From Gemmatimonadaceae bacterium (GTDB taxonomy: Bacteria; Gemmatimonadota; Gemmatimonadetes; Gemmatimonadales; Gemmatimonadaceae): DNA of 64,000 bases. This document shows, in pieces, positions 19,833 through 23,652 of this stretch (its first letter is position 1; each line of letters starts with the position of its first letter). A program made the translations under genes and the position numbers. Location: the NCBI GenBank assembly GCA_013813715.1, contig JACCRF010000121.1, positions 1 to 64,000 of the forward strand, read 5' to 3'. The notes beneath the pieces were generated by a model, which saw nothing but the letters and a program-made list of their open reading frames with translations, was not told where the DNA came from and did no database searches.

Positions 19833-22673
19833 CTACCGGTCGTTCAGTATCTCGACCGCACGGCTGCGCATGGCGGGCTCGCGATGCGAGCGCGCTACCT
19901 CTCGCACTGCTCCGATGCCCGCATCGTCGTTCAGCTCTCCGAGCAGCTCGAGGGCCCGCAGCCGCATCTCCACGCTCGCGTCGCTCGCCATCACCGACCT
20001 GAGCATGACGATCGCGGTAAGCGGTCTCATGCTCTCTGCGTGAACCTCCAGCGCGCGGCGCCTGAAGTCGACCTCGTCACGTCCATGCACAATCGACGCG
20101 AGAGCCCTGGCTGAAGCGCCGCTCTCGGACTCACCGAGCGCTTCCAGCGCAGCCTTCCGCAGATCGGTCTCGCCGGAACCGCGTGCGACTTCGATCAGCG
20201 CCTCGATCGCGGCGGGCTCGTCGTGAAAGCCGCCGAGTGTCTCGAGGGCCTTCATCCGCACTTCGATGCTCGGGTGGCTTCGGGCGATCGACCGAACAAC
20301 AGCAAGCGCCGCTGCGTCGTCCACCGTCTCTCCCAGTGACTCGACCGCCTCGATCTGCACCCTGCGAGACGGATTGGAGTTTGCGAGATCACGCAGCATG
20401 GATACGGCTCTCGCGTCATGGACCTCCGCAATTGTCTCTACCGCCTCCGCGCGGATCGACTCGTCCGGGTCAGTGCGCACGACCTGCATCAGTACCTCGA
20501 GCGCCCGGGACCCAGGCTCGGAACCTCCGATCGCCTCTACCGCCTTGCGGCGGACGTCTGGCGAAGGATCGCTTCGCGCGAACTCCATGACGACGCGAAA
20601 CCCCTTACCATCGGGCATGGTCGCCAATGCCTCGACGGCTTCCCCCTTGAGCTGCGAATCACTGGTACCGCGGACAACGCGCGTGAGGTAATCGACGGCA
20701 CGTTGATCGGTTCGATGTCCGAGCGCTTCGATAGCCGTGCGCTTCTGATCGTAATCGGCAACTGTCGAAGCGAACGAGATGAGAGAGTCGGTCGCCGGCG
20801 GTGACTCCATGTGCGAGAATGCCTCGATGGCCTCTTCCCGTACGCCACTCGACCGGTCGCTTCGAACCGCGCGCGACAGAGCGCCGATTGCGCGCGGATC
20901 GCGCTGCCTTCCCAGCCACTCCGTGGCTTCACGTCGCACATCTTCGGGCTCGCTCCGCGATTCGAGCAGCCCTATCAGAATCGGTACGACCACATCGGGT
21001 GACTGATGCACGCCGACCGCGGCAACAAGATCACGGCGGATGTCGTTCGTACGGGCGCGCGGCGTGAGCGACCTGATCATGTCCACGCTCTCGGTGTCAG
21101 TCGCTGAATCGAGCCAGATGACCGGCCGCGCGTTGAAGTAGACCGGAATACTGAAGCTGCCGACGTGCACGCGCTCGATTCTTCTGCCCAGCACGCCGTC
21201 GTTCATAAGCATGAAGATCGCGGTGGAATACGGCGAGTGCGGGCCGGCGATGGGTGTGAGCGGGACACCATGAAACGTGAACGCAGATAGATCGCCCGCA
21301 CCCATGTGCATGTGTCCGGAGATAGTGACGTCCCCGTCGATGCGCACGGGGATGTCGTCCGCATAATATCGGGACTTGCCGGTCTCGTCGCCCGCGACGA
21401 GATAACCGATCCAGTAACTGCCTCCGATGCCGCGTGCCCGCTGATCCGCCCAGCGCCAGCGATCGGCAAGTGATCCGGTGGTGGGAGCTCTCACGACATT
21501 CGCGGGTCCTGCCTTCGAGGGATCGGGCTGCGCCCGCTTTTTCTCTGTGGTGTCGGACTCGCCGGCCTGAACGATCGGCGAAGGGGTGAGCGAAGCCTGG
21601 ATCACAGTTCCCGTTGCTTCGCGGCCGGTGAACAGAGCGGCCGAGATGGTAATCACACCAGCTATCCAGCGTGGACCGAGCTCGATGTGCGCAGGCCCGC
21701 CGCTCAGCAGGCGCTTTGCTCTTCTGAGCAGCGATCCGCCTGTTGCAGCCGCGGCGAGGCCAAACCCCGCGGTGCGCGATTCCTCGAGGACAAGCAATGT
21801 CTCGGTATACGAAGCGGCACTGCCGCCACAGGTCGCGACCGCGATGTCGTCGCAGCAGCTCTCGCGCTCGTCACGGATGCGTTCGGACAGCCATCGCGCA
21901 CCGGGGTGGTAGAACAGCAGCGTCTCGATGACGGTCTGCGCGAGGTTGACCACGAAGTCATAGCGCCTGATGTGGGCTAGCTCGTGTGCGAGAAGCATGT
22001 CGATTTGGAGCGGTGTAAGTCCGGTGACAAGGCTCACGGGCACGACAATGACCGGGCGCAGGGCACCGATAACGAGGGGGACGTCGACGCGGATGGACTC
22101 GAGCACCCTTATCCGCTCCGATATGCCAAGCCGGTCGGCGAGCGAGCGAACGCGCGCGAGCAATTCGGGGGCGGCCGCCGATGTGCCGTGGCGGGTGATG
22201 CGCCGCGTGCGGGCAAGGCCACCGATGAGCTGGAGTGACGTGAGCAACAGTCCGAGGAGCCAGGCGGTCACGATCCAGGGCATGGCACGGACGATAGATG
22301 TGACGAGTCCCGAACTCTCTGATGGCGACCGACGGGCGCTCTCGTCGACAGTCGAAGGGGCGCCAGAGAGAGAGAATGTCGTACGCTCGAGCGCGGTTGC
22401 GCCCGGGTCAGGCTCATTCACCTGCTTGGACGCGTTGCGTTCACCGGATTGCGCACTCACCGAATTGACCGCCACCGTCGGGGGAACCGCCATTCGCAAT
22501 GCCGTCGCCAATGGCAGCGCTGCCATTAGAATCAGAAAACCAAGCCCCATGGCGTAGCGCGCGGCCGGCGGCGATCGGCGCGCGAGGAAAAACGCGAGTG
22601 CGGCCAGAGCGGCGAGGAAGCCACCCTGCCACACCGAGTGTATGATCGCCCAACCGATGATCTGCGTAGTCAT
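19833..22673 (-). CDS. BlaR1-like M56 metallopeptidase fused to HEAT repeats
   Basis: The 946-residue protein starts with a multi-pass M56 peptidase domain: membrane helices near 6-30, 42-62 and 131-150, the zinc motif HELAH (His230, Glu231, His234), and a third-ligand region with Glu271 in RDERESCCDD. A further helix lies near 335-350, then a linker of about 180 residues. Residues from about 525 to the end form twelve or so HEAT repeats, with repeating patterns such as VRRKAVEAIG and IRAEAVETIAEV. BlaR1/MecR1 proteins cleave or inactivate their BlaI partner on sensing a signal. Here the penicillin-binding sensor is absent and HEAT repeats take its place. Its start overlaps the BlaI-type gene by four bases. 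Confidence 0.85.
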   Translation of the reverse strand: MTTQIIGWAIIHSVWQGGFLAALAALAFFLARRSPPAARYAMGLGFLILMAALPLATALRMAVPPTVAVNSVSAQSGERNASKQVNEPDPGATALERTTFSLSGAPSTVDESARRSPSESSGLVTSIVRAMPWIVTAWLLGLLLTSLQLIGGLARTRRITRHGTSAAAPELLARVRSLADRLGISERIRVLESIRVDVPLVIGALRPVIVVPVSLVTGLTPLQIDMLLAHELAHIRRYDFVVNLAQTVIETLLFYHPGARWLSERIRDERESCCDDIAVATCGGSAASYTETLLVLEESRTAGFGLAAAATGGSLLRRAKRLLSGGPAHIELGPRWIAGVITISAALFTGREATGTVIQASLTPSPIVQAGESDTTEKKRAQPDPSKAGPANVVRAPTTGSLADRWRWADQRARGIGGSYWIGYLVAGDETGKSRYYADDIPVRIDGDVTISGHMHMGAGDLSAFTFHGVPLTPIAGPHSPYSTAIFMLMNDGVLGRRIERVHVGSFSIPVYFNARPVIWLDSATDTESVDMIRSLTPRARTNDIRRDLVAAVGVHQSPDVVVPILIGLLESRSEPEDVRREATEWLGRQRDPRAIGALSRAVRSDRSSGVREEAIEAFSHMESPPATDSLISFASTVADYDQKRTAIEALGHRTDQRAVDYLTRVVRGTSDSQLKGEAVEALATMPDGKGFRVVMEFARSDPSPDVRRKAVEAIGGSEPGSRALEVLMQVVRTDPDESIRAEAVETIAEVHDARAVSMLRDLANSNPSRRVQIEAVESLGETVDDAAALAVVRSIARSHPSIEVRMKALETLGGFHDEPAAIEALIEVARGSGETDLRKAALEALGESESGASARALASIVHGRDEVDFRRRALEVHAESMRPLTAIVMLRSVMASDASVEMRLRALELLGELNDDAGIGAVREVARSHREPAMRSRAVEILNDR

Positions 22674-23056
22674 CGTGCACCCCGCGAAAGTTCGTTGAGT
22701 AGCCGGCGGATCTTCTTCAGGTCTTCGGGCGACGCCTGCTTGTCCGAGAGGGCCTGCATGACGAGCCTGGCAGCGGAGCCATCGAACGCCCGATCAAGGA
22801 GATCAGACACCAATCGCCGCTTTATCGATTTTTCCTCGACCGCGTGAGAATAAACGTGAGATCGCTCCGACTCATTCCGCGTCACGAGCCCCTTCTCGGC
22901 CATCACCTGCATGGTCTTGAGTACGGTGGTGTACCCGATGTCGCGCTTTCGTCCCAGCGCGTCGTGCACCTCGCGCACTGTACGCGGCCCTCGTCTCCAG
23001 AGGATTCGCAGTATTTTCAGCTCTCCGTTCGAGGGAATCTGCGTGCCGCGACTCAT
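22670..23056 (-). CDS. BlaI/MecI/CopY-family repressor
   Basis: The 128-residue protein is a winged-helix BlaI-type repressor (IPSNGELKILRILWRRGPRT, then GYTTVLKTMQVMAEKGLV). Its C-terminal dimerisation helices are normally the target of the M56 peptidase partner. I chose the ATG at 23056, with GGAGAG upstream; the longer open frame to 23224 runs through the promoter. It probably represses its own operon through the palindrome at 23101-23117. Confidence 0.88.
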   Translation of the reverse strand: MSRGTQIPSNGELKILRILWRRGPRTVREVHDALGRKRDIGYTTVLKTMQVMAEKGLVTRNESERSHVYSHAVEEKSIKRRLVSDLLDRAFDGSAARLVMQALSDKQASPEDLKKIRRLLNELSRGAR

Positions 23057-23084: not shown

Positions 23085-23117
23085 AATCTACGAATAGGCT
23101 CGTACTTGGCAAGTACG
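23085..23117 (-). promoter_or_regulatory. Predicted promoter and BlaI-type operator
   Basis: On the minus strand TTGCCA (23107-23112) and TAGATT (23085-23090) are separated by 16 bases. The near-perfect palindrome CGTACTTGGCAAGTACG (23101-23117), with 8-base arms around a single centre base, covers the -35 element. The start codon of the repressor lies 29 bases downstream of the -10 element. Repression by the BlaI-type protein would block polymerase directly. Confidence 0.5.
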
Positions 23118-23151
23118 AAGCTTCCCGTAGACTTGTAAGGTTTCTGTACCG

Positions 23152-23652
23152 TCAAATCCTGTTTTCTTTGGGCTGCGGTGGACGCTCCTGAATCTGTGCG
23201 TGAGGCCGTTCGCCGTCGTCCCAATCGCCGGACCAGTCACGAAGCCCCAGGCTGACTGTCACGGAAACCGTGTTGAGAAGAATCTCGTGACGCGCTGTTA
23301 CGGCGAGCCGGCCCAGGTGATGGTCATCCCCTCGATATCCGGCGCTATATCCCGTGATCCCGACGGCGGCACTCAGAACCTCCCGTGAGAAGACGATTGG
23401 AGCCGCCAGTCTTTCCTGAGGTCCGAATCCCTTACTGGGACTGATGAATACTGACCCTGTACGGATCTCCATGCCAACCTCCTCGAGACCGTCCCGTTCG
23501 CGGAAGGCCGGGAATCCGGGGCGATTCGCGACAACGACCCCTAAACCAGTGCCTGGCGCGCAATATCCTTCCACGTTGAGCACGTGTATCGAAACTGTGG
23601 AAAGCCGCCGTAGATATTGGCCCGCCGGAACTGTCCAGCAAGCGCGCACCAC
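23152..23652 (-). CDS. Uncharacterised protein, possibly a truncated outer-membrane protein
   Basis: A 166-codon frame from a GTG at 23652 is open. Its middle and C-terminal parts alternate polar and hydrophobic residues (GVVVANRPGFPAFRERDGLE and ARHEILLNTVSVTVSLGLRD), as in outer-membrane beta strands. The end, however, is charged and irregular, and a stop lies a few codons upstream of the GTG. It could be a broken barrel protein or a genuine small one. I recognise no family. Confidence 0.35.
   Translation of the reverse strand: MVRACWTVPAGQYLRRLSTVSIHVLNVEGYCAPGTGLGVVVANRPGFPAFRERDGLEEVGMEIRTGSVFISPSKGFGPQERLAAPIVFSREVLSAAVGITGYSAGYRGDDHHLGRLAVTARHEILLNTVSVTVSLGLRDWSGDWDDGERPHAQIQERPPQPKENRI

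Follow-up and report, generated by a model that had tools for sequence, protein, structure and literature searches.

The BlaI-BlaR1 and MecI-MecR1 systems of Staphylococcus and Bacillus licheniformis pair a winged-helix repressor with a membrane protease, which carries a HEXXH...E zinc site between helices 3 and 4, an autocleavage strand and a C-terminal domain after helix 4; a palindromic site precedes the regulator gene. BlaR1 is known as an antibiotic sensor, and its topology is described as N-out and C-out, with the sensor outside (PMC9834060). The same elements are found in a gene pair of the Gemmatimonadaceae contig JACCRF010000121.1, of which the first 64,000 nucleotides were analysed (the window), except that no penicillin-binding domain is found and a β-rich domain and an array of 13 HEAT repeats stand in its place. 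This pair, blaI and M56-HEAT, probably forms a proteolytic switch of the BlaR1 type, in which the ectodomain is exchanged and which controls its own operon.

Both genes are on the minus strand (Table 1), and the start of M56-HEAT overlaps the stop of blaI by 4 nt (22670–22673). The blaI product, read from an ATG, belongs to Penicillinase_R (PF03965, E 1.7e-28, 99.7 bits against a cut-off of 22.6), and the 946-residue protein to Peptidase_M56 (PF05569, E 7.8e-27, 94.6 bits against a cut-off of 31). The original prediction for this locus, a BlaI-type repressor overlapping an M56 peptidase with a HELAH motif, is thereby confirmed.

Membrane protease module and cleavage strands

The structure of the M56-HEAT protein was predicted with AlphaFold2 from 37 aligned sequences (the window's protein and translations from related loci), with a mean predicted local distance difference test (pLDDT) of 81.9 and a predicted template modelling score (pTM) of 0.58. 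In the model, helices 2–30, 36–62, 120–161 and 334–362 frame the membrane module, the protease is placed between helices 3 and 4, and a low-confidence loop (residues 66–117) stands in place of EL1 of BlaR1. The predicted fold is that of the BlaR1 membrane protease: in VIA-align, residues 6–312 match BlaR1 8exs_A with a Z-score of 19.4 and a root-mean-square deviation of 4.6 over 252 residues, and further BlaR1 structures match from residue 4 or 6 to 312 (8ext, Z 18.6; 8exq, Z 17.9; 8exp, Z 17.4). A profile of 37 M56 relatives also matches 8exs (E 1.4e-13) and 8exp (E 1.3e-12). The NCBIfam profile blaR1_generic covers residues 133–294 alone and scores 65.2 bits, below its cut-off of 400.

Since the fold of the model agrees with BlaR1 over residues 6–312 and BlaR1 is N-out and C-out, the HEAT arm should be extracytoplasmic. 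The charges just before helix 4 (five Lys and Arg, one Asp or Glu) favour the inside, while those after it (five and four) are not decisive. Nothing in the predicted model places the array in the cytoplasm, and the BlaR1-like fold together with the four-helix layout supports the expectation that the array replaces the β-lactam sensor and probably lies outside the membrane.

The zinc site is complete and of the BlaR1 type, with H230, E231, H234 and E271 as its residues. These four are identical in all 80 aligned rows, S. aureus BlaR1 included, as are the equivalents of its D246 and R293; that of R294 is identical in 79 of 80.

The cleavage strands were compared in 79 pairs, comprising the window and 78 of 80 named loci, which had been retrieved as similar to the window's M56. 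The cut in S. aureus BlaI, which we take to be N101-F102, aligns with Q-A in the window's BlaI, in a segment that is nearly invariant. Alanine occupies P1' of BlaI in 78 of the pairs, in place of the Phe of S. aureus. Autocleavage of S. aureus BlaR1 occurs between S283 and F284 (PMC9834060), which align with A-A in the window's M56 protein. P1' of M56, Phe in S. aureus BlaR1, is Ala in 59 pairs, Phe in 8, Ser in 5 and another residue in 7. Ala thus stands in the window where BlaI-BlaR1 and MecI-MecR1 have Phe, at the predicted P1' of both strands, and the presence of Ala-type strands in both partners is consistent with a shared altered specificity of the presumed cut.

C-terminal β-rich domain and HEAT array

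Helix 4 is followed by a β-rich domain of ~136 residues, which joins the M56 module to the HEAT array and was absent from the original prediction. It was found in three of 200 genomes, always within an M56 protein. Folded alone, residues 390–525 give a mean pLDDT of 57.8 and a best Foldseek E of 2.5, a model too poor for fold assignment. The VIA-align list covers well just the BlaR1 part and residues 525–946, and says nothing on other folds.

The array matches HEAT_2 (PF13646) in 8 stretches, with an E of 5.2e-63 and 209.8 bits against a cut-off of 27.7. From residue 526 onwards the model contains 25 helix segments. One of these is long and corresponds to two helices, so that 13 A/B pairs are counted; about twelve repeats from residue 525 had been predicted. 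The self-similarity of the array peaks at a lag of 32 residues (0.201, where the 99.9% level of the best lag in 1000 shuffles is 0.142), and residues 525–946 align with HEAT and alphaRep folds (alphaRep 4zv6, Z 21.4; YibA 1oyz, Z 14.8). After the M56 domain, Pfam shows HEAT-type repeats and one sub-threshold match and no transpeptidase; neither Pfam nor the fold match of residues 525–946 reveals the C-terminal penicillin-binding (transpeptidase-like) domain of BlaR1.

HEAT arrays usually bind proteins or peptides, and the array of M56-HEAT may likewise bind a protein or polymer. The repeat type is shared with the HEAT_2/HEAT_PBS proteins NblB (E 1.4e-14), CpcE/F and YibA and with designed alphaRep, which are soluble proteins, whereas the window's array is joined to a membrane protease. 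Protein length varies from 849 to 1006 residues among relatives, which would agree with a flexible binding surface without being proof of one. Compared with the window, array identity is 44% over 418 residues in the same-genus locus L044 and 60% over 323 residues in L084; the EL1 loop is less similar (20% and 27%) and the M56 core more so (60% and 66%).

Tandem operators and their targets

Upstream of blaI in the window are TACGGGAAGCTTCGTA, nine bases and TACGAGCCTATTCGTA, two sites of the form TACG-N8-CGTA, 25 bp apart. Operator 2 overlaps the spacer of a putative promoter and the first two bases of its -10 element. In the same-genus genome G276, two such sites are also 25 bp apart, and in G138, G255 and G144 they are 24 bp apart. 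The spacer contains TTGACA in G138, G255 and G144, and TTGCGA is found at the same place in one relative; A/T-rich, -10-like bases follow the second site in G276, G138 and G255. In loci L045 and L086, about 6 nt separate the last of the -10-like bases from the ATG of blaI, which suggests leaderless transcripts.

Table 1. Features of the blaI–M56-HEAT operon in the window
Feature	Position	Strand	Basis
blaI, BlaI/MecI-type winged-helix repressor, 128 aa	22670..23056	-	Penicillinase_R profile, PDB BlaI/MecI matches
M56-HEAT membrane peptidase, 946 aa	19833..22673	-	open reading frame and Pfam
BlaR1-like membrane protease module, residues 2–362	21588..22670	-	AlphaFold2 model, BlaR1 fold match, profile match
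HELAH zinc motif, residues 230–234	21972..21986	-	invariant in 37 sequences
Third zinc ligand E271	21861–21863	-	alignment
Residues 306–311 (LAAAAT), aligned with BlaR1 autocleavage strand	21741..21758	-	alignment; putative cleavage
β-rich domain between helix 4 and HEAT array, residues about 390–525	21099..21506	-	model
HEAT array, residues 526–946, 13 repeats of about 32 aa	19836..21098	-	Pfam, model, fold match, periodicity
Operator 1 (distal), TACGGGAAGCTTCGTA	23114..23129	-	comparison with relatives
Operator 2 (proximal), TACGAGCCTATTCGTA	23089..23104	-	comparison with relatives
Promoter-like pair TTGCCA (23107–23112), N16, TAGATT (23085–23090)	23085..23112	-	read from sequence; putative promoter
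Junction of inner halves of operators 1 and 2 (palindrome)	23101..23117		genome search and relatives

Of the 82 blaI open reading frames (ORFs) in the 80 named loci, 63 have TACG-N8-CGTA in the 230 bp that precede the BlaI domain. None has any of three control patterns there (0, 0 and 0 of 82), and one of the 82 carries the site within the gene itself. By NCBI label the site is present in 11 named phyla: Acidobacteriota (26/32 loci), Planctomycetota (11/14), Gemmatimonadota (7/8), Bacteroidota (7/10), Myxococcota (4/4), Verrucomicrobiota (2/2), Pseudomonadota (1/2), Eiseniibacteriota (1/2), Poribacteria (1/1), Ignavibacteriota (1/1) and Sumerlaeota (1/1); it is also found in an unlabelled locus (1/1), but not in Deinococcota (0/2). 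Among close relatives it stands at 12 of 26 blaI ORFs (controls 0, 0, 0). A spaced sample of M56 loci from the class has it at just 7 of 69 (controls 1, 0, 1), and TACG-N8-CGTA therefore marks the lineage of the window's BlaI, not all BlaI.

The conserved site is mostly TACGAA-N4-TTCGTA and does not have the TACA/TGTA form known for BlaI/MecI/CopY operators (PMC7253601), by which it differs from BlaI-BlaR1 and MecI-MecR1. Since other BlaI proteins also differ, TACA/TGTA is not a strict mark of the family: the half-sites of C. thermocellum BlaI_1845 and BlaI_0696 are of the GTCTAT/GACTAT type (PMC8457756). The copper repressors CopY/CopR belong to the same repressor family and have palindromic operators with TAC/GTA-like halves, but the window's BlaI scores 57.1 bits with TIGR02698 (CopY/TcrY), under the cut-off of 121.95, and its operator differs from RNYKACANNTGTMRNY. 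No earlier description of TACGAA-N4-TTCGTA was found among the titles listed from the open-access literature, which is weak evidence of absence.

The palindrome at 23101–23117, proposed for a genome search, is confirmed, and its 15-bp core, GTACTTG-N-CAAGTAC, is present as a single exact copy in the genome; with up to two mismatches it occurs at 9 sites against 8 for the control. The palindrome consists of the inner halves of the two operators, and it was rejected as an operator unit because relatives keep the flanking TACG-N8-CGTA sites and not the junction.

The tandem pattern is found once per genome in five of ten genomes (control 0), each time 19–50 bp from the BlaI domain start. A stricter form, sought in 201 genomes of the order, occurs once in each of four, again the four relatives (control 0). 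A search of 16 genomes for the exact TACGAA-N4-TTCGTA gives 26 sites; the control pattern gives four, in G313, G314, G318 and G320 (one each). Eleven of the 16 have a single exact site, located at the BlaI domain start in each, and in G255 (two sites) and G314 (three) all are clustered at blaI, while G313 and G319 have one additional site each, inside an ORF. Because the exact site is confined to blaI in 13 of the 16 genomes searched, self-regulation is the supported output, and not the unknown regulon that had been proposed, which also finds no support in the tandem operators. The operon itself thus appears to be the usual detectable target, which supports autogenous control.

Self-regulation by BlaI is already precedented in C. 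thermocellum. The regulon described for BlaI_1845 is a single operon, its own (blaI and blaR1), and both BlaI_1845 and BlaI_0696 have ordered sites for four protomers (PMC8457756), as would the window's locus; unlike the M56-HEAT protein, their partners are annotated as BlaR1, and the authors assume an action on β-lactams (PMC8457756).

In the genome of the window, sites with up to two mismatches to TACGAA-N4-TTCGTA show no excess (56 against 54 in the control), and three other sites with one mismatch (C125:41432, C125:88158 and C179:857) are inside ORFs. Counts with up to one mismatch in 15 genomes are mixed relative to the control, for example 8 against 3 in G276, 7 against 3 in G311, 19 against 11 in G313, 5 against 24 in G316, 4 against 4 in G000 and 9 against 9 in G319. 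With loose sites at the control level, a wider regulon is not claimed for the window's genome, where weaker or single sites may exist.

A small regulon is possible in the myxobacterium Citreicoccus inhibens (G312). Four exact sites are present in this genome, one at its own blaI (L268), and two intergenic places have no BlaI or M56 nearby. At one of them (L264:5859–5896) a pair of sites is located 31 bp before a 761-residue ORF with DEAD-box and DbpA domains, and at the other (L265:5810–5847) a site and a neighbour with one mismatch lie between divergent ORFs of 284 residues and 852 residues, the latter DUF5916/CBM9-like.

Distribution of the fusion and its possible function

The M56-HEAT fusion is not unique to this assembly. 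The protein is matched somewhere in 211 of 298 genomes of the phylum, many of the matches covering M56 alone or HEAT alone. Full-length relatives with the same domain order occur in other Gemmatimonadota (G276 with 48% identity, G138, G255 and G215), including another family, and among named Gemmatimonadetes (L084, L085 and L086, the last taken as the same record as G255). In the class sample, HEAT_2 is matched by 15 of 74 M56 C-terminal regions and is the commonest among the families listed (TonB_C 4, Peptidase_M23 1); the Pfam count is used, as a stricter HEAT profile of our own under-counts (8 of 75 fused). The 78 C-termini taken from the 80 named loci include HEAT_2 (11), CarboxypepD_reg (8), TonB_C (6) and ankyrin repeats (5), among 25 of 78 families listed. 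Three Secretin and three polysaccharide deacetylase C-termini also occur, an unusual range on one membrane protease. The M56 proteins with TonB_C, carboxypeptidase regulatory-like or ankyrin C-termini share the N-terminal module and mostly the BlaI partner and the operator form. No paper on M56-HEAT receptors was found in the open-access literature, which is again weak evidence of absence.

On a tree of 171 M56 domains the HEAT label changes 11 times, at least 8 of them on well-supported branches, and the array was therefore probably gained or lost several times. The tree was a quick one with strict HEAT labels, without a mixture model and with long-branch warnings, and missed arrays would inflate the number of changes.

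Several loci differ in arrangement. M56-HEAT genes without an adjacent BlaI are found in L047, L062 and L085, of which L047 and L085 have the domain order of the window. An M56 peptidase is fused to a PAP2-superfamily domain in L063:2811–4751. The ORF L068:6605–12352 (1915 residues, true start uncertain) has M56 at about 990–1320 and then HEAT, and no Pfam family is listed for the part before M56. In the Planctomycetota loci L117, L154 and L161, two or more BlaI-M56 pairs stand in a row.

The window's genome contains a second BlaI-M56 pair, the M56 protein of which also carries HEAT (4 stretches). It is followed by a separate HEAT protein of 473 residues with an N-terminal hydrophobic stretch (L060:3896–5317, G000:C140). 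Separate HEAT genes after M56 are also present in L059, L064, L083 and L170, that of L064 identified by a match other than Pfam.

The five flanking genes scanned in the window are a crotonase-family gene, the phenylacetyl-CoA epoxidase subunit PaaA, a GntR-type regulator, a PhoX-like phosphatase and an AI-2E-type transporter; no obvious functional partner, no β-lactamase or penicillin-binding protein and no copper export gene is among them. The crotonase-family gene is common to the window and L044. In a comparison of 13 loci, BlaI was the one gene near the operon that the window was seen to share with relatives from other genera. A 166-residue ORF without Pfam match lies upstream of blaI (23152–23652, minus strand), its end 22 bp from operator 1.

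By analogy with BlaI-BlaR1, the pair would be a two-gene transmembrane switch, in which the β-rich domain and the HEAT array replace the penicillin-binding sensor. BlaI dimers on the two tandem operators over the promoter would keep the operon off. The extracytoplasmic HEAT part would bind a ligand, for which a protein, peptide or polymer of the envelope is the likeliest class, and the membrane helices would shift; the cytosol-facing zinc protease would then clear its own autocleavage strand and cut BlaI close to the site that corresponds to the S. aureus cut in the alignment. This would lift repression, and more BlaI and M56-HEAT would be made. The main output would be the M56-HEAT protein itself, because the exact operator is found just at blaI in most genomes searched; it might act as a self-amplifying sensor, or its ectodomain or protease might carry out the actual function.

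A number of observations weigh against this scheme. The pTM of 0.58 leaves the placement of the HEAT arm relative to the membrane module uncertain. Ala at P1' differs from the bulky residue preferred by BlaR1, for whose substrate BlaI an almost invariant Phe at P1' is reported, and replacement of F284 by Ala leaves S. aureus BlaR1 deficient in autocleavage (PMC9834060), so that cleavage may fall elsewhere or differ from that of BlaR1; moreover, P1' of M56 is not Ala in 20 of the 79 pairs. The window's operators are imperfect, with 1 and 2 mismatches to TACGAA-N4-TTCGTA, 19 of the 82 blaI ORFs of the named loci are without the site, and the two other intergenic places in Citreicoccus indicate that self-regulation alone is not universal. 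BlaI is missing beside M56 at 2 of 84 M56 ORFs of the named loci (L085, and L136, which begins at a contig end), at 4 of 30 among close relatives (L047, L062, L063 and L076, the first two carrying HEAT) and at 11 of 75 in the class sample.

The HEAT ectodomain might also be the output of the operon and not its sensor, with a cue acting on the protease or on BlaI and the product serving as a membrane-anchored scaffold, which binds envelope proteins. Such a scaffold would agree with the tandem operator lying solely at blaI in five of the ten genomes, where no other gene is visibly controlled, with HEAT proteins that are encoded on their own directly behind M56 and begin with a hydrophobic stretch (L060, L059, L064 and L083) and with the variable protein length. 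Yet the array occupies the place of the BlaR1 sensor after helix 4, and the full zinc site and autocleavage strand, needless for a mere anchor, are kept; a scaffold role is considered unlikely. Somewhat less probable still is a protease with another main substrate, membrane or cytosolic, whose level is set by BlaI and whose HEAT arm selects or docks a substrate or partner. The very different C-termini on M56 domains (HEAT, TonB_C, carboxypeptidase-regulatory, ankyrin) and the M56-HEAT genes of L047, L062 and L085 without adjacent BlaI point in this direction, but 82 of the 84 M56 ORFs found in the 80 named loci adjoin BlaI, and the part of BlaI that aligns with the S. aureus cut hardly varies. 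That the arrays are easily acquired filler, and the fusion is without a specific signalling role, appears very improbable: the 11 changes on the tree, if not inflated by missed arrays, indicate that the array comes and goes, whereas its identity to L044 and L084 exceeds that of the EL1 loop and the full domain order is kept in another family.

The proteolytic switch with an exchanged ectodomain is thus preferred, and the original prediction is partly supported, its outline of the protein being good and its regulon and operator palindrome not borne out. More broadly, and as a tentative proposal with somewhat less than an even chance, BlaI-M56 may be a signalling chassis that crosses at least 11 phyla, with a near-invariant operator, matched Ala-type strands and freely exchanged ectodomains, the product of which is usually the protease itself; its HEAT type would be a self-amplifying envelope device, which senses a protein or polymer and is unrelated to antibiotics. 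The operator makes the targets of this BlaI lineage predictable in any genome by a 16-bp search. If the BlaR1 relatives of soil and sediment phyla have retained the switch and taken on other sensors, β-lactam sensing by BlaR1 would be one special case of a general proteolytic route from an outside signal to a promoter.

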